A stretch of 64,000 nucleotides of DNA from Pseudomonadota bacterium (GTDB lineage Bacteria; Bdellovibrionota; Bacteriovoracia; Bacteriovoracales; Bacteriovoracaceae): positions 1-64,000 of the forward strand of contig JAIYDL010000026.1 in the NCBI GenBank assembly GCA_027487515.1, given 5' to 3'. The notes below the pieces were generated by a model. It did no database searches, was not told where the DNA came from, and was given only the letters and a program-made list of their open reading frames with translations. The first letter of the stretch is position 1, and each line of letters opens with the position of its first letter. Positions 13,277 to 20,458 of the stretch are shown in pieces. A program made the translations under genes and the position numbers.

Positions 13277-13690
13277 TTACTGGTCTTCGGTCTGACGCTT
13301 TATTTCCGAAGCGGAGCTTTCTGACAGATTGAGCTCGGCAACCTTCGGCGGCTGATGCCGTTCTGACTGAGAAACGAAGAACGACGTGAGCCTCTTATCC
13401 ATCACTGAAAGTAAGACATCAACCAGCTCATGGTAGTGAGTGTGGATCCACTGCGCCGAGAAATGATTGGGAACTTCTAAGATGAGAACGTTGTGAGAGA
13501 TAACGAGAGGCTTCACTTCTTTAAACCATTGGTGATGGACGGCGGGCCCCAGAACGTCGCAGAGCTGATCGGACAGCACGGACCAAATATAGGAAGCCTT
13601 AACTACGGGGTGTGCCAGGTTAAGATTCTTTTCTTTAAACCGGTTATTCTGCTGAGACCATCTTGTCTTGAGACAGCGTTTTTTTTTCAT
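13277..13690 (-). CDS. Stand-alone DnaA domain I-like protein
   Basis: A 137-residue protein whose centre (about residues 34-105) reads like the N-terminal interaction domain of the replication initiator DnaA: IWSVLSDQLCDVLGP, then WFKEVKPL, then LILEVPNHFSAQWIHTHYHE, the same order as the W...L...WI.PL...LYAPN.F...W....Y of DnaA. The AAA+ ATPase and the helix-turn-helix DNA-binding domains are absent. The N-terminus is basic; the C-terminal 30 residues are polar and probably unfolded. It lies 48 bases downstream of hflX on the same strand and may be read from that operon. Family knowledge: DnaA domain I binds DnaB helicase and regulators and self-associates. A regulatory role is inference. 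Confidence 0.7.
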   Translation of the reverse strand: MKKKRCLKTRWSQQNNRFKEKNLNLAHPVVKASYIWSVLSDQLCDVLGPAVHHQWFKEVKPLVISHNVLILEVPNHFSAQWIHTHYHELVDVLLSVMDKRLTSFFVSQSERHQPPKVAELNLSESSASEIKRQTEDQ

Positions 13691-13738: not shown

Positions 13739-15073
13739 TCAGAAAGATGGGCGATTCTGCTCCCATTCTCGGGCCTCCGCCGGGGCCAAAATAAAACTAT
13801 TGAGGCCTAGCTGTTGAAAGATAAAGTCCGGAATCCGGATCCGGTAGAACATGCCCTGTTCGTGAGAGACGGAGTTAAGGATGTTCGCGTTCCCTCGAAT
13901 CCGGGAGTGGGCTTCACCGGCCTCGTAGGGAACAAAAAGGTCGTAGTGGTCTTGTTTGGAAAGGAAGAAATTGATGACGTACTCTCTGAGGCCCCGCATG
14001 TCTTGCTCATCGTAGGAAGAGACGAGGAAGCTGTTGGCGTAATTTCGCATGATGATGCGGGCCCGGACGGGATCGTTCAGGATGTCCTTTTTGTTGAAGA
14101 CGATGACTTGTTCTTTGTCCTCAATCTTGAGCTCTTTGAGAACCTCTTGGGTCACTCGCAGGTGCTTGGCGTAGTTCGGGTCCGAGATGTCACACACGAG
14201 GATCAGAAGATCTGCCTCCATCGCCGACTCAAGCGTCGTCTTAAAGCCTTGGACCAGGGTGTTTGGAAGGTTGGAGATGAATCCGACGGTGTCGATCATG
14301 ATCATCGGAGGCTTCGAGTCTGGGTTCAGAGTGCGGAAGGTTGAGTCGAGGGTCGCGAAGAGTTTGTTCTCTTCGAGGACGTTCACCTTGCAGAGCCGGT
14401 TCATCAGAGAGGATTTCCCCGCATTCGTGTACCCCACGAGAGCGGCGGTGACTGCCTGATTCTGGCGCTTCTTCTTTTGCTGCTCTCGGGAGCGCTGAAC
14501 CTCTTCGAGTTGCTTCTTGTAGTATTCGATCCGCTCCCGCACCATCCGCCGGTCGAGCTCGAGCTGCTGTTCACCCTCTCCGCCGACGGCGCGGCCTCCG
14601 CCGCGCTGCTTAGAAAAGTGCCCCCACATGCTCGTCAGCCGAGGAAGGAGGTACTGGAGCCGCGAGATCTCGATCTGGATCTTCGCTTCCTTCGTGCGGG
14701 CATGGTGCGCGAAGATCTCAAGGATCACCGTGTTCCGGTCGACGATCTCGAGCTTGGTGATCTCCTTGATGTTCCGTAACTGGGCCCCGGTGAGTTCGAA
14801 GTCGAAGACCAGGAGTTCAGAGCCCTCCTCGCGGGCCGCATCCGCGATCTCCTGGAGCTTGCCTTCTCCGAGCATCGTCGCTGGATCGAGTTGCTTCCGG
14901 TTCTGGATGTATTCTTCGCCGCCGACGAGACCGAGGGTGCGGAGGAGCTCCCGCAGCTCGCGCAAGGAGTTATTCGTCTCAAGCACGGTGGCATGGTTTT
15001 CGAACTTCTCACAGACGATGGAGACCAGAGACGCCTTCTGGCCCAGGGGGAGCTTGTATTCTTCTTGGTTCAC
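13739..15073 (-). CDS. hflX: GTPase HflX
   Basis: Ribosome-associated GTPase, a splitting or rescue factor under stress in other bacteria. Seen: an N-terminal HflX domain (about 1-180) with DPATMLGEGKLQEI and a Gly-rich GGGRAVGGEGEQQLELDRR linker, then a G domain with G1 GYTNAGKSS, G3 DTVGF and G4 NKKD. 444 residues is typical. It begins with GTG, overlapping the panC stop as GTGA, so it is translated as the last gene of the pan/coa operon. That pairing is positional and does not imply a shared pathway. Confidence 0.96.
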   Translation of the reverse strand: MNQEEYKLPLGQKASLVSIVCEKFENHATVLETNNSLRELRELLRTLGLVGGEEYIQNRKQLDPATMLGEGKLQEIADAAREEGSELLVFDFELTGAQLRNIKEITKLEIVDRNTVILEIFAHHARTKEAKIQIEISRLQYLLPRLTSMWGHFSKQRGGGRAVGGEGEQQLELDRRMVRERIEYYKKQLEEVQRSREQQKKKRQNQAVTAALVGYTNAGKSSLMNRLCKVNVLEENKLFATLDSTFRTLNPDSKPPMIMIDTVGFISNLPNTLVQGFKTTLESAMEADLLILVCDISDPNYAKHLRVTQEVLKELKIEDKEQVIVFNKKDILNDPVRARIIMRNYANSFLVSSYDEQDMRGLREYVINFFLSKQDHYDLFVPYEAGEAHSRIRGNANILNSVSHEQGMFYRIRIPDFIFQQLGLNSFILAPAEAREWEQNRPSF

Positions 15074-15924
15074 GATACCTCCACTTGCACGTTGTCGAGG
15101 AGCCGCGTGCTCCCCAGCTGGTAAACGGCAAGGATAGTGATGTGGGTTGAACGGTCAACGTCTTCGGCGAGGGTCTCCGCGTCGCGGAGCTCGAGGTAAT
15201 TCCAGTGGGGGTCTTTGAGGACATCCGAAATGCGCCGCCGCGCCTCGGGGATCCGATGGCGTGCTCCACCGATCAGCGCTGCGAGCTGGCGGAGCGTTTG
15301 GGAGAGGACCAGCGAGGCCGCTCGTTGCTCGGGGGAGAGGTACTGATTCCGACTCGAAAGTGCTAGCCCGGAGGCTTCTCGAATGATGGGCATCCCTTGA
15401 ATCTTCACGGGGAGACAGAGGTCTTTTACCATCTGCGAAATCACGAGGTACTGCTGGTAGTCCTTGAGTCCAAAGTAGGCGGTGCTCGGGTTCACGAGGT
15501 CGAAGAGCTTGTGGACCACCGTCGCGACACCTTCGAAGTGACCGGGCCTCGATTGGCCTTCTAGGATCGTACTGAGGCCGCAGACGGCCACGGACTGTGT
15601 GTCACCAGCAGGAAAAACTTCTGTCGGATTCGCCGGAGCGAACACGACGACCTGGCGAGCCGGGAACCGGGCGGCACTCGCCTCGATCACGGAGAGGTCT
15701 TGCTCGAGAGTCCGCGGGTAGCGTCCGTAGTCTTCGGCGGGGCCAAACTGCTTCGGGTTTACGAAGATCGAAAAATAAACGACGGGGTTTTCAGCGAGGG
15801 CGCGCTCGAGGAGGGAGGCGTGGCCCGCGTGGAGGTTTCCCATGGTGGGGACGAACCCGATGGGAAGGGACTCCTGGGACCGTCGGAGGCGGAGTTCGCT
15901 GGTTTCCCGGATGAGCGTTACCAT
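15070..15924 (-). CDS. panC: Pantothenate synthetase
   Basis: ATP-dependent condensation of pantoate with beta-alanine to pantothenate. Seen: PTMGNLHAGHASL (the HxGH nucleotide motif), FVNPKQF, GLKDYQQ and ALSSRNQYLS (KMSKS-like region). The ATG at 15924 is chosen because it overlaps the coaBC stop as ATGGTAA and gives 284 residues, the E. coli size; an ATG seven codons upstream is possible. It is the fifth gene of the operon running from 19579 down to 13739. A gene for beta-alanine supply (panD) is not in the window. Confidence 0.97.
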   Translation of the reverse strand: MVTLIRETSELRLRRSQESLPIGFVPTMGNLHAGHASLLERALAENPVVYFSIFVNPKQFGPAEDYGRYPRTLEQDLSVIEASAARFPARQVVVFAPANPTEVFPAGDTQSVAVCGLSTILEGQSRPGHFEGVATVVHKLFDLVNPSTAYFGLKDYQQYLVISQMVKDLCLPVKIQGMPIIREASGLALSSRNQYLSPEQRAASLVLSQTLRQLAALIGGARHRIPEARRRISDVLKDPHWNYLELRDAETLAEDVDRSTHITILAVYQLGSTRLLDNVQVEVS

Positions 15925-17147
15925 GAGCTGCGGCCTTCGAACCATTGGACCAGCTTTTCTCCGAGCCCAAGCTTCGAAAGTTTTATCGGCCCCCGGATGT
16001 TGGTTTTCTCGACGATGTAGTATTCTCCGTGTGACTTTTGGAAGCCCTCGACCTCGGGGCCTCCGATCAGACCGTTCGAGACCTTGTTACCGATCATGAG
16101 GTCGACGGGCTTGCGCGCCATCTTTTCCATGAAGACCTCCTTCGTGGTCTCGGTCTCGGCGGCGAAGCTCACGACTTTTTGCTGGGTCCGCAGGGTGAGG
16201 ATTTCTTTGAGAATGTCTGCCGCCTGACGAAAGGGGAGAGAGGTTCCCATGGCTTCTTTCTTTAACTTGATCGCAGCGGGGTCAAATTCGATGTCTGCGA
16301 TGGCACCGGTTGAGATGTACAGATCCGAGTCCGGAAAAAGTGCCACGGCGGCGTCACGCATGAGGGCCGTTGTCGGAGTTTTTCGAAGAGCGAAAGCGGG
16401 GTGACCCAGGAGGTTCTCCGCGTCCGAAGAGCACTGGTGGCCAGCGAGCAGCGTGACCCGATGGCCCGCGGCCAGGAATGCCTTCGCGATCGAAATGCCC
16501 ATCTTTCCGCTCGACGGGTTCGTCAGGTAGCGGACGGGGTCGAGGGGCGACGCCGTCGCTCCCGCCGTGATGAGGATGTGCTTGGCCGGAGTGTCTCGTG
16601 GGACCAGCGTTTCGATCAGATCAACGACGGCGGCCACTTCTGGAAACTTCCCTGCACCGATGTCGCCGCAGGCGAGGAGCCCGGAGGCGGGGTTTACGAT
16701 GCGCACACGCCGGAGCCCTTCGAGCGTGCGGCGGTGTTCTTGAATCCGCGGATCTCCCCACATGGCCGTGTTCATGGCTGGAAAAAACAGCACCGGTGTT
16801 CCGCCCGCGGCCAGGAAGAGGCTCGAGAGGAGGTCATTCGTGATTCCGAGTGCAAGCCGGGAGAGAGTGTTCGCAGAAGCGGGGGCGATGACGATCCGGT
16901 CCGCCCAGCGAACCAGTTCAATGTGCAACACCGTTTCTCCTCGAGCGAGGGCGTCCGGAACAAAGTCATCCTCCGGGAGAAAGACGTCTTCGACCCCGAG
17001 GTAGCGGAACGTCTCCGGGACCACGAACTCGAGAGCGCCAGCGGTGAGCACGACCTTTACGGCGTGACCGTTCTTGACCAGTTGTCGGGCCACGTCGAGG
17101 CTCTTGTAGCTTGCGATCGATCCCGTGACGGCGAGGAGGATGTTCAT
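15918..17147 (-). CDS. coaBC: Bifunctional phosphopantothenoylcysteine decarboxylase / phosphopantothenate-cysteine ligase
   Basis: Adds cysteine to 4'-phosphopantothenate (CoaB) and decarboxylates the product (CoaC) in coenzyme A synthesis. Seen: an N-terminal FMN-binding CoaC part with GSIASYK, the active-site His in HIELVRWAD, PAMNTAMW and the catalytic Cys in GLLACGDIGAGK; then a CoaB part with ITAGAT and NPSSGKMG. The ATG at 17147 is chosen for its ATGA overlap with the coaX stop; upstream starts exist to 17174. 409 residues is the usual fused size. It follows coaX directly, so the operon orders kinase, then ligase/decarboxylase. Confidence 0.97.
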   Translation of the reverse strand: MNILLAVTGSIASYKSLDVARQLVKNGHAVKVVLTAGALEFVVPETFRYLGVEDVFLPEDDFVPDALARGETVLHIELVRWADRIVIAPASANTLSRLALGITNDLLSSLFLAAGGTPVLFFPAMNTAMWGDPRIQEHRRTLEGLRRVRIVNPASGLLACGDIGAGKFPEVAAVVDLIETLVPRDTPAKHILITAGATASPLDPVRYLTNPSSGKMGISIAKAFLAAGHRVTLLAGHQCSSDAENLLGHPAFALRKTPTTALMRDAAVALFPDSDLYISTGAIADIEFDPAAIKLKKEAMGTSLPFRQAADILKEILTLRTQQKVVSFAAETETTKEVFMEKMARKPVDLMIGNKVSNGLIGGPEVEGFQKSHGEYYIVEKTNIRGPIKLSKLGLGEKLVQWFEGRSSW

Positions 17148-17887
17148 TGCGGCTCGATTTGTGTTGTCATCCAAAAGTGGAGGGCCCAGTGTAGCAAATG
17201 CGGGCTACTTTCTACAACCAGGGCATGATCGAGATCTTGGAAAAAGCCTCTCCAAATGGCACCCTGGCCCCCGGTGAGGAGGATTTTTCTTAGGCCCAGC
17301 TCCAGAATGAGCTTCTTGGCAAGTGCAGCAAAGGCCGAGTAGCCGCTGGACATGGCCGACGCCGTGTCCTTAGGCAGTGCCTGGGACGGAAGGGCCTCGA
17401 GCGAAACGCCCTTGAGTTGTTCACCTTTGCCGAAGGTCTCGTAGTAAGTGCTGAGGCCCGGGATAATGAATCCCCCTTGGAAGCCTCTCTCCGTTACGAC
17501 ATCCATCGTGACGAAGGTACCGGCGTCAATGATGAGCTGTGGGATTTTCTCCCGTTTATACGCGAAGAATGCTTCGATGAGACGGTCCTCTCCCAGCGTC
17601 GCGGCGTAGTCGACGGGCATCCCCGCGAAGCGACCCCCGCGCCAGTAGTCTTTGACTCGGGTGATGAGGAACCCTTGTTCCAGGAGTTTTGTGATCTCAG
17701 TCTCCCGTGCTCGAACTTCGCACACGACGACGCTCGTGTTGTGAGCGCTCATCCCGAGCTGCGTGAGATAGAGCGGAAGCTCCACCAGGGGAACGACTTT
17801 CACCAGGCCCCAGGAACCTTGGACCTTCTGGAAAAGACCGGCGTGGGGGTTGGAGTTTCCAAAATCGAGAGTGACGAGCCCTTGCAC
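17144..17887 (-). CDS. coaX: Type III pantothenate kinase
   Basis: Phosphorylates pantothenate, the first step from vitamin to coenzyme A. Seen: LVTLDFGNSNPHAGLF (ATP-binding DxGN), VDYAATLGEDRLIEAFFAYK (the Y...G-x-DR motif, here GEDR), IIDAGTFVTMDVV and GGFIIPGL. All are hallmarks of CoaX of the ASKHA fold rather than CoaA. 247 residues fits. It starts one base after the panB stop and overlaps coaBC by ATGA. Type III kinases typically resist CoA feedback inhibition and need a monovalent cation (family knowledge). Confidence 0.93.
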   Translation of the reverse strand: MQGLVTLDFGNSNPHAGLFQKVQGSWGLVKVVPLVELPLYLTQLGMSAHNTSVVVCEVRARETEITKLLEQGFLITRVKDYWRGGRFAGMPVDYAATLGEDRLIEAFFAYKREKIPQLIIDAGTFVTMDVVTERGFQGGFIIPGLSTYYETFGKGEQLKGVSLEALPSQALPKDTASAMSSGYSAFAALAKKLILELGLRKILLTGGQGAIWRGFFQDLDHALVVESSPHLLHWALHFWMTTQIEPQ

Positions 17888-17888
17888 C

Positions 17889-18650
17889 CTACTTCCTCTG
17901 GTTGTGGAGGTACTGAGTGATGAGCTCTTTCCGGAGTTCGTACAGGTCGGCGACGGGTGGGCAAAACTTCGGCGGTGTGCGCGGCCCCATCTTCAAGAGA
18001 TCGTTGATGACGAGCACCTGGCCATCCGTCTGAGGGCCTGCGCCGATGCCGATGGTTGGAATCTTGAGTTGCTGGGTGATTTCTGTGGCCACCGGTTCGG
18101 CAACCATTTCGAGGACGACTGAAAAGCAGCCGGCGGCTTGGAGTGCCAGGGCCTCGCGCAGGAGCCGAGCGGCGTCGTCTTCAGTCTTCCCATGAGTGAA
18201 GTATCCTCCGAGCTGGTGGACGGACTGGGGAGTTAGGCCGATGTGACCCATCACGGGAATTCCAGTCTGAGTCAACCGCTCGATGAGTTTGAGTTGGTAG
18301 GGGAAAGCGCCCTCGAGTTTCACGGCCTCGCAGCGAGTGTTCTGAAACAACTTCGTCGCTGAGTGGACTCCTTGTGTGACGGTTGAATACGCGCCGAACG
18401 GAAGGTCGACGATGAGGAACTTATCCGGCGCTCCCCGGCGAACGGCCTTCCCGAAGATCTCCATTTCAGCGAGGGTCACTTCGACCGTCGTGTCATACCC
18501 TAGGACCACGTTCCCGACGGAATCACCGACGAGGATCATCTCGAGGTCGGTCTCGTTCAGGAGTGCCGCCGTTTGGAAGTCATAGCACGTGAGGACCTGG
18601 AGCTTCGTTCCTTTGGCCTTCCGGAGGTCACGCAGAGAGAGTTTTTTCAT
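17889..18650 (-). CDS. panB: Ketopantoate hydroxymethyltransferase
   Basis: Transfers a hydroxymethyl group from methylene-tetrahydrofolate to 2-ketoisovalerate, giving ketopantoate. Seen: LTCYDFQTAALL, the metal-site segment LVGDSVGNVVLGYDTT, VKLEGA, MGHIGLTPQSVHQLGGY and the late TIGIGAGPQTDGQVLVINDL. 253 residues is normal. It overlaps the IlvC-like gene upstream by ATGA. Its product needs a reductase (PanE) to become pantoate, and the only reductase in the operon is that IlvC-like protein. Confidence 0.97.
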   Translation of the reverse strand: MKKLSLRDLRKAKGTKLQVLTCYDFQTAALLNETDLEMILVGDSVGNVVLGYDTTVEVTLAEMEIFGKAVRRGAPDKFLIVDLPFGAYSTVTQGVHSATKLFQNTRCEAVKLEGAFPYQLKLIERLTQTGIPVMGHIGLTPQSVHQLGGYFTHGKTEDDAARLLREALALQAAGCFSVVLEMVAEPVATEITQQLKIPTIGIGAGPQTDGQVLVINDLLKMGPRTPPKFCPPVADLYELRKELITQYLHNQRK

Positions 18651-19579
18651 GGGCCATCCTGACGGTTTATCGTATTAAATGTCTGCTGGAGCGGCGACTG
18701 ATGCCAGCGATCCCGGATCCGGCGTCGGATCTCTTCGACGCTCGTATTCTCAAGCTCCCGGTTAAAGGTCCCATCCTGGATTTCTGCCAAAAGTGAGCGC
18801 AAGCGCGATCGGAAGTCCTCGGTGATGAGCCTTTGGTAGCCTTTCTCAGAGCCAACGAGCGCGTTGGGACTGATGAGGTCGAAGAAGGCTTCTGGGCCCT
18901 TGTCCACCATGGCATCGACGATGAGTTTGAGCTCATGCCAGCACTCGAAGTAGGCGAGCTCCGGCTCCGCTCCGCTGTCTACCAAATGAGAGAACATCTC
19001 ACCGGCCGCGTACGGCACGAGCGAACAGAGAAGACCCTGTTCAGAGTAAAGATCGGCGCGGGTTTCGCGCTCGAAGCTCGTCGCAAACGGTCCCATGTTG
19101 ATTCCAAGCGCTCGCGCCAGGCGCCGAAGCCACGCTTCGATCTCGGCTGCTGGCCCTCGGAAATGCTCGAGAGAATAGACGGCTCCGAGTTTACCTTGAA
19201 GCTGGTACTGGCGCCGCAGTTCAGAGCCGATGGACTTGGGTGCGAAGAGCACGTGCTGCAAGTGGGAATAGCGGGTCTGAAAGCGATGGTTAAGGAGAGA
19301 GAATCCGTGGGCATAGAGAATCACCGAACCCGGGGCCAGGCGCGGGGCTTCGGCTTCGAGGAACTCAGCGTGGGCCAGATCCGGCGTGAGGAGGGCGTAG
19401 GCACCATCGTTGTAGAACCCAGCGGAGCCGATTTCAACCACGTCGAGACCTGAAGCAGCGGCGGCTTTGCAAGAGGAGCTGCCGGGCCTTAGCGCCACGC
19501 GGACCGGGAAGCCTGAATCTTTAAGATTTAAGGCCCAGGATTTTGCCTGATTTCCGAAGCCAATGATTGTTAGTCGCAT
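18647..19579 (-). CDS. IlvC-family (ketol-acid reductoisomerase-like) enzyme, candidate ketopantoate reductase
   Basis: NAD(P)H-dependent reductoisomerase family. Seen: a Rossmann opening RLTIIGFGNQAKSWALNLKD, phosphate loop RPGSSS, catalytic-region H91 in YAHGFSL, then the knotted helical domain with DLYSEQGLLCS (D176, E180), YFECWHELKLIVD (E212, E216) and S237 in DLISPNA. The 36-residue gap between the acidic pairs and the 21-residue gap to the Ser equal those of class I KARI, so the metal site looks complete. The protein is 310 residues, slightly short of class I. ATG codons at 19582 and 19579 are tandem. As first gene of the pan/coa operon, it sits where panE would be. Family knowledge: IlvC can reduce ketopantoate in Salmonella and Corynebacterium. 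The role here is inference. Confidence 0.85.
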   Translation of the reverse strand: MRLTIIGFGNQAKSWALNLKDSGFPVRVALRPGSSSCKAAAASGLDVVEIGSAGFYNDGAYALLTPDLAHAEFLEAEAPRLAPGSVILYAHGFSLLNHRFQTRYSHLQHVLFAPKSIGSELRRQYQLQGKLGAVYSLEHFRGPAAEIEAWLRRLARALGINMGPFATSFERETRADLYSEQGLLCSLVPYAAGEMFSHLVDSGAEPELAYFECWHELKLIVDAMVDKGPEAFFDLISPNALVGSEKGYQRLITEDFRSRLRSLLAEIQDGTFNRELENTSVEEIRRRIRDRWHQSPLQQTFNTINRQDGP

Positions 19580-19657
19580 CATAAAAATGACTGGTTTGAA
19601 ACTCCCCAAAAAAGCTATCATGTTTACGCAGAGCTTGGCCAAGTATTAAGGGGACGC

Positions 19658-20458
19658 GTGACAGACAACAGCAATCGGGCCTTCATGTACGGCGAATCGG
19701 TCTTCACGACCATGCGAATGGTCGGCGGAATCGTTCAGGACTGGGAGCTTCACTTCGAGCGACTGCAGAAGGGGGTGGGATTTGTCTACGGGCCTTTCTC
19801 CGACACTGACGACTGGGTCGTGCTCCTTAAACGAAAACTCGAAGGACACCTCGAAGGGTTGAGCGGCGACGGCATCGTCCGACCCTCCGTGTACGTCTCC
19901 CCGGTGGGGCGAGGGCCTCTTCGCCTTGGCACCATCTCTGTCAGCGACCTTCGGATCCAAGTGGACCGTTCGCCCCTCCGGCAGCACCGGCCGGAAGAAC
20001 GAATCGCACTGAGAAGTTGTTCGTCCACGGCGAGGCCCCAGTGGTGGCCGTCCTACCTCAAGGCCGGCAGCTACCTCGAGACCATCTTGGCCCAGAAGCT
20101 TTTCCTCAAGACTGGAGACGACGATCTCCTTTTTTTATCCCCGGCAAAGACGGTGCTTGAAACCTCCGTGGCCAATGTCTTTTTCGTTCACAAGCGATGC
20201 CTCTCCACAGCACCGGCAGGGCCTAATGTCCTGGAGGGTGTCATGCGGCGGAAGGTGCTTCGGGTGGCCCGTGAGTTCTTCGACTCGGTGGTCGAGGCCG
20301 AATCGCCGTTGGAGCACCTTCAGTCAGCGGATGCGGTCTTTGGAGCAAATTCCGTCCGTGGTCTTTTTTTAGTAGACCGGATCGATGACCATGCCATACC
20401 GTATAGTCAGGACTTCCTCGAGCTCTTTGCCCGGCTCCGGGAGAGTGCGATGCTATGA
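19658..20458 (+). CDS. Class IV aminotransferase-fold PLP enzyme, probably aminodeoxychorismate lyase
   Basis: PLP-dependent enzyme of fold type IV. Seen: an early GESVFTTMRMVGG with LHFERL (the start of PabC/IlvE proteins), the Schiff-base lysine K135 in PSYLKAGSYLE, and VLETSVANVFFV followed by GVMRRKVL. In PabC (4-amino-4-deoxychorismate lyase, folate pathway) the lysine is followed by a similar x-Leu-x-Tyr pattern; branched-chain or D-amino acid aminotransferases are alternatives. The GTG start has AAGGGG (19648-19653) 4 bases upstream. It is divergent from the pan/coa operon and overlaps yacG by ATGA. The folate role would fit panB, which uses a folate cofactor. Confidence 0.75.
   Translation: MTDNSNRAFMYGESVFTTMRMVGGIVQDWELHFERLQKGVGFVYGPFSDTDDWVVLLKRKLEGHLEGLSGDGIVRPSVYVSPVGRGPLRLGTISVSDLRIQVDRSPLRQHRPEERIALRSCSSTARPQWWPSYLKAGSYLETILAQKLFLKTGDDDLLFLSPAKTVLETSVANVFFVHKRCLSTAPAGPNVLEGVMRRKVLRVAREFFDSVVEAESPLEHLQSADAVFGANSVRGLFLVDRIDDHAIPYSQDFLELFARLRESAML

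Follow-up and report, generated by a model that had tools for sequence, protein, structure and literature searches.

On the minus strand of contig JAIYDL010000026.1 from a Bacteriovoracaceae bacterium (GenBank assembly GCA_027487515.1), a run of six genes occupies positions 13739–19582 of the 64,000-nucleotide stretch analyzed here (positions 1 to 64,000 of the contig, hereafter the window). The first gene encodes a protein of the ketol-acid reductoisomerase (KARI) superfamily and is followed by panB, coaX, coaBC, panC, and hflX. We focused on this first product, here called the pan-linked KARI, as the candidate enzyme for the reduction of ketopantoate between PanB and PanC. The genes of the unit are as follows.

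18647–19582, minus strand: KARI-family protein of 311 amino acids, predicted ketopantoate reductase (KARI domains, operon position)
17889–18650, minus strand: panB, ketopantoate hydroxymethyltransferase (TIGR00222, 263.8 bits, cut-off 207.55)
17144–17887, minus strand: coaX, type III pantothenate kinase (PF03309, 73.9 over 24.7; TIGR00671, 66.3 over 58.2)
15918–17147, minus strand: coaBC, ATG start at 17147, in-frame TTG at 17174 (TIGR00521, 289.2 over 219.7)
15070–15924, minus strand: panC, pantoate--beta-alanine ligase, ATG at 15924, in-frame ATG at 15945 (TIGR00018, 269 over 212.75)
13739–15073, minus strand: hflX GTPase, co-oriented with panC (TIGR03156, 382.8 over 216.75)

Pfam domains were found in the order of the unit (KARI_N and KARI_C, Pantoate_transf, Pan_kinase of type III, Flavoprotein and DFP, Pantoate_ligase, and the HflX GTPase domains), and panB, coaX, coaBC, panC, and hflX each have an NCBIfam match above cut-off. 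Recomputed junctions gave a 4-base overlap between KARI and panB, a 1-base gap between panB and coaX, and overlaps of 4, 7, and 4 bases at coaX/coaBC, coaBC/panC, and panC/hflX, respectively, which together with the domain assignments confirmed the gene order, strand, and spacing given in the preliminary description of the window. hflX is a member of the unit by position only and is not a pathway gene.

Both KARI superfamily domains of the pan-linked KARI lie above the gathering score (PF07991, 85.7 over 20.6 bits; PF01450, 100.5 over 29.1 bits). In contrast to class I KARI (IlvC, EC 1.1.1.86), with which it shares about 30% identity, the protein misses both IlvC equivalog cut-offs (TIGR00465, 181.1 of 226.15 bits; NF004017, 193 of 336) and begins some 15 residues further on (residue 1 of the model pairs with residue 16 of 1np3). 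Neither the PanE domains (PF02558 and PF08546) nor the DUF2520 domain (PF10728) was detected in it by Pfam scan (E 0.01).

We then considered the gene content of the source genome, a draft of 3.41 Mb in 27 contigs. Among named contigs, it is most closely related to a metagenome-assembled genome (MAG) labelled Proteobacteria, at 87% identity, and to many Bacteriovoracaceae-labelled MAGs, and close relatives of the pan-linked KARI are named ketol-acid reductoisomerase in the database. Only one KARI was found in the genome; the other match to the KARI search (L002) was rejected as a second KARI, as its sequence looks to us like adenosylhomocysteinase. Neither PanE nor DUF2520 (PanG-type) was found in this draft, and two weak matches (L003 and L004) were rejected as a hidden PanE, as they look to us like UDP-glucose dehydrogenase and 3-hydroxyacyl-CoA dehydrogenase. 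IlvD also had 0 matches in the draft genome, the same search being positive in 14/14 control genomes. Because valine cannot be reached through KARI when IlvD is missing, the reading as an ordinary branched-chain KARI, which the preliminary description had set against its own proposal, fails here, and by pathway knowledge valine synthesis through KARI and IlvD is not possible in this genome. On the other hand, a true branched-chain aminotransferase (L097; TIGR01123, 363.4 bits over 250.05) is encoded on the same contig at position 66670, and conversion of valine to 2-oxoisovalerate, the PanB substrate, is therefore possible. Based on its position in the pan operon and on the lack of any other known candidate (PanE, DUF2520, or second KARI) in its own genome, the product of 18647–19582 is predicted to be a ketopantoate reductase (EC 1.1.1.169). 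With high probability, it works as the dedicated ketopantoate reductase of the organism, which would convert the PanB product to pantoate for PanC.

To see how general this arrangement is, we searched a class set of 129 genomes, all labelled with the family of the window, using the ilvC model; absences reported here hold for draft genomes and for the families that were searched. Matches were detected in 117/129 genomes, ten of which had only a short adenosylhomocysteinase-like match. Such short matches cover a stretch of the model equal in size and position to that matched by L002, and they fill the low-scoring rows. A divergent KARI, below the ilvC cut-off, was found in 105/129 genomes, and an ordinary KARI in three, either alone (G062 and G121) or in addition to the divergent one (G120). 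In each of these three genomes, IlvD is encoded on the same contig as the ordinary KARI; across the class set, IlvD was found in 4/129 genomes (the same three and G122). A KARI fragment of 95 residues in G008 (62 bits) was left out of the counts. panB is present in 118/129 genomes, including all of the divergent-KARI genomes (105/105), and in 102/105 of the latter the KARI gene immediately precedes panB on the same strand, with 14 to 184 bases between the matched segments. Such a constant arrangement indicates that the unit in the window is not a chance one. IlvD is missing in 104/105 of the divergent-KARI genomes, and both IlvD and a full-length PanE-family protein are missing in 101/105. Full-length PanE-family matches occur in 5/129 class genomes (G004, G042, G056, G058, and G127), four of them over the cut-off. 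Among named public contigs, 20/22 loci belonged to the pan-linked group and two were thaumarchaeal KARIs; KARI is followed by panB in 19/20 of the pan-linked loci, the order continues through to hflX in 16, and the remaining three end at contig edges.

Two genomes illustrate how ordinary and pan-linked KARIs are arranged. In G120, an ordinary KARI (L070) is located beside an IlvB-type thiamine pyrophosphate (TPP) enzyme and LeuA-like proteins, with IlvD on the same contig, and a separate pan-linked KARI is found at L075 in the order KARI-panB-coaX-coaBC-panC-hflX. In G062, the ordinary KARI belongs to an ilvD-ilvB-ilvN-KARI cluster (L069), DUF2520 precedes panB (L107), and there is no pan-linked KARI. 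In addition, G061 and G070 contain an odd KARI relative (L030 and L031; 267.6 and 217.7 bits) beside the divergent KARI. These were not counted as ordinary KARIs, having R in place of K116 and having lost E217. They are located at L072:8261-9337 and L073:9598-10608, respectively, each directly after a D-2-hydroxyacid dehydrogenase gene, and look like KARIs that may have moved to some other reaction.

The 13 class genomes that contain panB and lack the divergent KARI were of particular interest. A DUF2520 match was detected in 10/13 of these and in no other class genome (0/105 divergent-KARI genomes), nine of the ten being over the Pfam cut-off. According to match coordinates, the DUF2520 gene immediately precedes panB, on the same strand, in 10/10 of these genomes; whole-protein scans covered six of them. 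DUF2520-type homologs are named in Francisella (FTT1388), Enterococcus, and Clostridium in a genome study which describes the Francisella protein as converting 2-dehydropantoate to pantoate and cites Miller 2013 on PanG (PMC4572677); Miller 2013 is cited here via this study and PMC4494066. The DUF2520 proteins are similar to the pan-linked KARI in occupying the same slot upstream of panB but belong to a different Pfam family (PF10728, about 240 amino acids), and their operons differ in that panC directly follows panB and that coaC and coaB are separate frames in 9/10 (one frame in L098). The ten genomes do not stand for ten separate exchanges, since G066–G069 share one genus and G026 and G028 another, and G127, one of the ten, additionally contains a PanE-family protein that falls just short of the cut-off. 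The slot ahead of panB appears to be filled by turns by reductases of two different families, and in our view this is the strongest single argument for ketopantoate reductase function.

We further extended the search to 368 genomes of the phylum, in which matches were obtained for IlvD in 8, PanB in 312, and KARI over the ilvC cut-off in 33; of these 33, only G062, G120, G121, and G295 have IlvD. Genomic neighborhoods outside the class were examined at 44 loci (40 distinct places), two of which (L147 and L150; KARI by profile model but unmarked by BLAST) were left unjudged. At least nine genomes outside the class (G297, G302, G303, G307, G308, G317, G329, G333, and G358) have a KARI directly upstream of panB. 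In each of them coaBC follows panB, as does panC where the contig reaches, and none is among the 8 phylum genomes with IlvD. PanB is present in 194 genomes outside the class, and a panB-linked KARI was not seen in most of them at the loci examined. Families f2–f12 had only short matches among the matches listed, G187 excepted. A further set of KARIs over the ilvC cut-off (L120–L145 and L159–L163, mostly of families f13–f16 and f28) comes from genomes in which IlvD was not matched, and the stretches fetched contain no panB; among 13 of them examined, E217 is lost in 3 and N is found at D177 in 3.

Phylogenetic analyses separated the pan-linked proteins from other KARIs. In a tree of 68 rows, the 52 class rows (including 8 second copies of a locus) formed one group with support of 100/100, apart from 16 other KARIs. 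In a second tree of 66 rows, in which the class group was thinned to 25 of its 52 rows and phylum members were added, 36 pan-side rows were split from 30 others at 100/98. Every panB-adjacent KARI in this tree falls on the pan side; the pan-side rows without shown panB adjacency are L023 and L074 (apart from panB) and L155 and L158 (contig edges). The non-pan rows that come from genomes have no panB in the stretches fetched, some of which are short. Nine plasmid reference KARIs, for which flanks of only 300 bases allow no reading of panB adjacency, were picked for variety (114 records with a KARI match, 60 listed, ten fetched, nine used). Both trees are unrooted and many supports inside the pan group are low; therefore, one recruitment is the simplest reading of them rather than proof. 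Considered together, the separate tree group and the missing PanE, IlvD, and second KARI support the proposal of the preliminary description, and the most likely role of the pan-linked protein, as judged from gene content and phylogeny, is that of a KARI-derived, dedicated ketopantoate reductase.

Multiple alignment was used to compare active-site residues, numbered here from the first ATG (19582). H92, K116, D177, E181, E213, E217, and S238 are present in the window protein and kept in 52/52 class rows; on the pan side, H92 is kept in 35/36 rows and the other six in 36/36. The preliminary description had listed H91, D176/E180, E212/E216, and S237, which is right when counted from the second ATG (19579). 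Unlike class I KARIs, the window protein has W16, I118, and N240, three signature positions which were chosen, after viewing a table of 29 noncatalytic positions, as common to the whole pan side. Most of the other tabled positions are distinctive for the class only, and 26 positions have one residue in at least 85% of the 52 class rows that is absent from seven comparison rows. The relevant features of the window protein are as follows.

19040–19054, minus strand: metal-ligand pair D177...E181 of KARI (52/52 class rows, 36/36 pan-side rows)
18932–18946, minus strand: metal-ligand pair E213...E217 of KARI (52/52 class rows, 36/36 pan-side rows)
19535–19537, minus strand: W16, pan-group signature, four residues past Q12 of the GxGxQ motif (W in 34/36 pan-side rows, 0/30 others)
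19229–19231, minus strand: I118, pan-group signature, two residues past K116 (I or V in 36/36 pan-side rows, 0/30 others; P in 15/15 ordinary KARIs)
18863–18865, minus strand: N240, at the Thr of S-x-T-A in ordinary KARIs (not T in 34/36 pan-side rows; T in 15/15 ordinary KARIs and 27/30 non-pan rows)

Judged by motif spacing, N240 would correspond to T520 and W16 to Q140 of spinach KARI. A computational study of the spinach enzyme places T520 in a hydrogen-bond network beside E319, a residue tied to methyl migration, and reports that Q136 interacts with NADPH and that Q140 is among the redesigned positions (PMC11264209). The alkyl-migration step may no longer be needed by the pan-linked KARI. 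Losing the Thr close to the catalytic Glu and gaining a Trp close to the Gln that binds nicotinamide would agree with this, and the signature changes would fit an enzyme freed from its isomerase half.

A possible route can be proposed as follows. Valine taken up from outside would be converted to 2-oxoisovalerate by the branched-chain aminotransferase, and PanB would convert 2-oxoisovalerate to ketopantoate. The KARI-derived enzyme may then bind ketopantoate at its two-Mg2+ site and reduce the 2-oxo group with NAD(P)H, and PanC, CoaX, and CoaBC would lead onward towards coenzyme A (CoA). Regarding its origin, we give about an even chance to a single ancient recruitment in Bdellovibrionota, by which a KARI would have become a stand-alone ketopantoate reductase, lost its isomerase half, outlived the loss of valine synthesis, and come to swap with PanG before panB, as a third dedicated kind beside PanE and PanG.

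Several observations weigh against the assignment as a dedicated ketopantoate reductase or limit its support. The source genome is 93.85% complete, which limits the absences reported there, and in some class genomes the PanE search scored no more than 16 of as many as 24 initial candidates. Three of the 13 genomes with panB and no divergent KARI (G020, G084, and G122; 75, 59, and 68% complete) have no reductase of the searched families. In 3/105 genomes (G004, G042, and G058), a PanE-family protein occurs alongside the divergent KARI, and in another 3/105 (G059, G060, and G061) the KARI is away from panB, the contig in G059 being only 3.9 kb. Within the phylum, 29/33 genomes with KARI over the cut-off have no IlvD match (including G061 with its odd relative and the panB-linked G302 and G303); thus, a missing IlvD alone is no mark of the pan-linked kind, and the other phylum KARIs without IlvD were not panB-linked where examined. 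Finally, apart from T240, the pan-linked KARI retains the residues of the isomerase site, and it may therefore still have isomerase activity.

These points bear differently on the alternatives. The enzyme may be the pathway ketopantoate reductase and yet also reduce another 2-oxo acid outside the pathway, in which case it would not be dedicated, an explanation that overlaps with ours. KARIs are described as promiscuous (PMC4353338), and the three genomes with KARI away from panB would agree with such a broader role, which we nevertheless consider unlikely, since its co-occurrence with panB in 105/105 genomes and the way DUF2520 excludes it from that slot point to one role. It is quite improbable that an enzyme not yet recognized is the true ketopantoate reductase and that the KARI relative has another job in CoA metabolism: the three pan-linked KARI genomes which also carry a PanE-family protein speak for it, but the pathway has a single reduction between PanB and PanC, the ketopantoate step, and full-length PanE-family proteins are as rare in the class as noted above, that of G056 (L077:9309-11035, beside a BadF-type ATPase) occurring in a genome without a panB match, which suggests that PanE-family proteins of this class need not be ketopantoate reductases. 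An ordinary branched-chain IlvC that lies in a pan operon by chance and reduces ketopantoate as a side activity, as in Corynebacterium glutamicum, is very improbable and was rejected: the catalytic residues are all kept, one IlvC serving both pathways is already known, and KARIs without detected IlvD are common in the phylum, but the window protein scores too low on the equivalog models, IlvD is missing from its genome and from nearly all class genomes with a pan-linked KARI, G120 holds a separate ordinary KARI in the company of an IlvB-type enzyme, LeuA-like proteins, and IlvD, and the pan-linked proteins form their own tree group.

Several neighboring genes were also noted. A gene for a class IV, PabC-like aminotransferase lies outside the unit as its divergent neighbor:

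19658–20458, plus strand: class IV aminotransferase, PabC-like (PF01063, 112.9 bits; TIGR03461, 87.5, below cut-off 176.85)

This gene, after which comes an inositol monophosphatase family gene, has the same divergent orientation to the pan unit in most class loci. A role as supplier of 2-oxoisovalerate is unsupported, its best score being for PabC (below cut-off) and a full branched-chain aminotransferase being encoded at contig position 66670. After hflX, a 137-amino-acid protein (window 13277–13690) contains the DnaA N-terminal domain (PF11638) as the sole domain found; it follows hflX in 15/16 named loci that reach hflX, and the sixteenth ends within hflX. In G107, besides the panB adjoining KARI, a second panB (L113, G107:C90) has an IclR-like regulator family gene as its neighbor.

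That a KARI-family enzyme can carry out the PanE step is already known. Buchnera ilvC rescues an Escherichia coli panE ilvC strain, in which growth with E. coli ilvC is very limited (PMC4306246); in C. glutamicum, IlvC has been cited as making up for a missing panE (PMC4353338); and PanE, PanG, and IlvC are all reported to contribute to ketopantoate reduction in Bacillus subtilis (PMC11487621). However, the IlvCs of Buchnera, C. glutamicum, B. subtilis, and Salmonella are valine-pathway enzymes with a second job, whereas the proteins described here form a subfamily of their own whose genes directly precede panB, in class genomes of which 104/105 lack IlvD. BurG, a KARI-family cyclopropanol synthase, differs in belonging to secondary metabolism, in binding NAD+, and in its reaction. 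A KARI encoded beside panB was not described in the titles or abstract openings of the papers listed from the open-licence literature, in which no papers were found for Bdellovibrio with ketol-acid reductoisomerase or for Bacteriovorax with pantothenate. What looks new is therefore the separate panB-encoded KARI subfamily, in genomes mostly without IlvD.

Under the database name ketol-acid reductoisomerase, these bacteria would be assigned a step of the valine pathway of which most of them give no other indication, IlvD being found in 4/129 class genomes. A KARI that carries out only the reduction would be a natural separation of both half-reactions of the textbook bifunctional enzyme, and the three signature positions are directly testable by swaps between pan-linked and ordinary KARIs. 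If our assignment is true, the ketopantoate step would be served by a third dedicated enzyme family, and the missing step towards coenzyme A would be filled in this bacterium.

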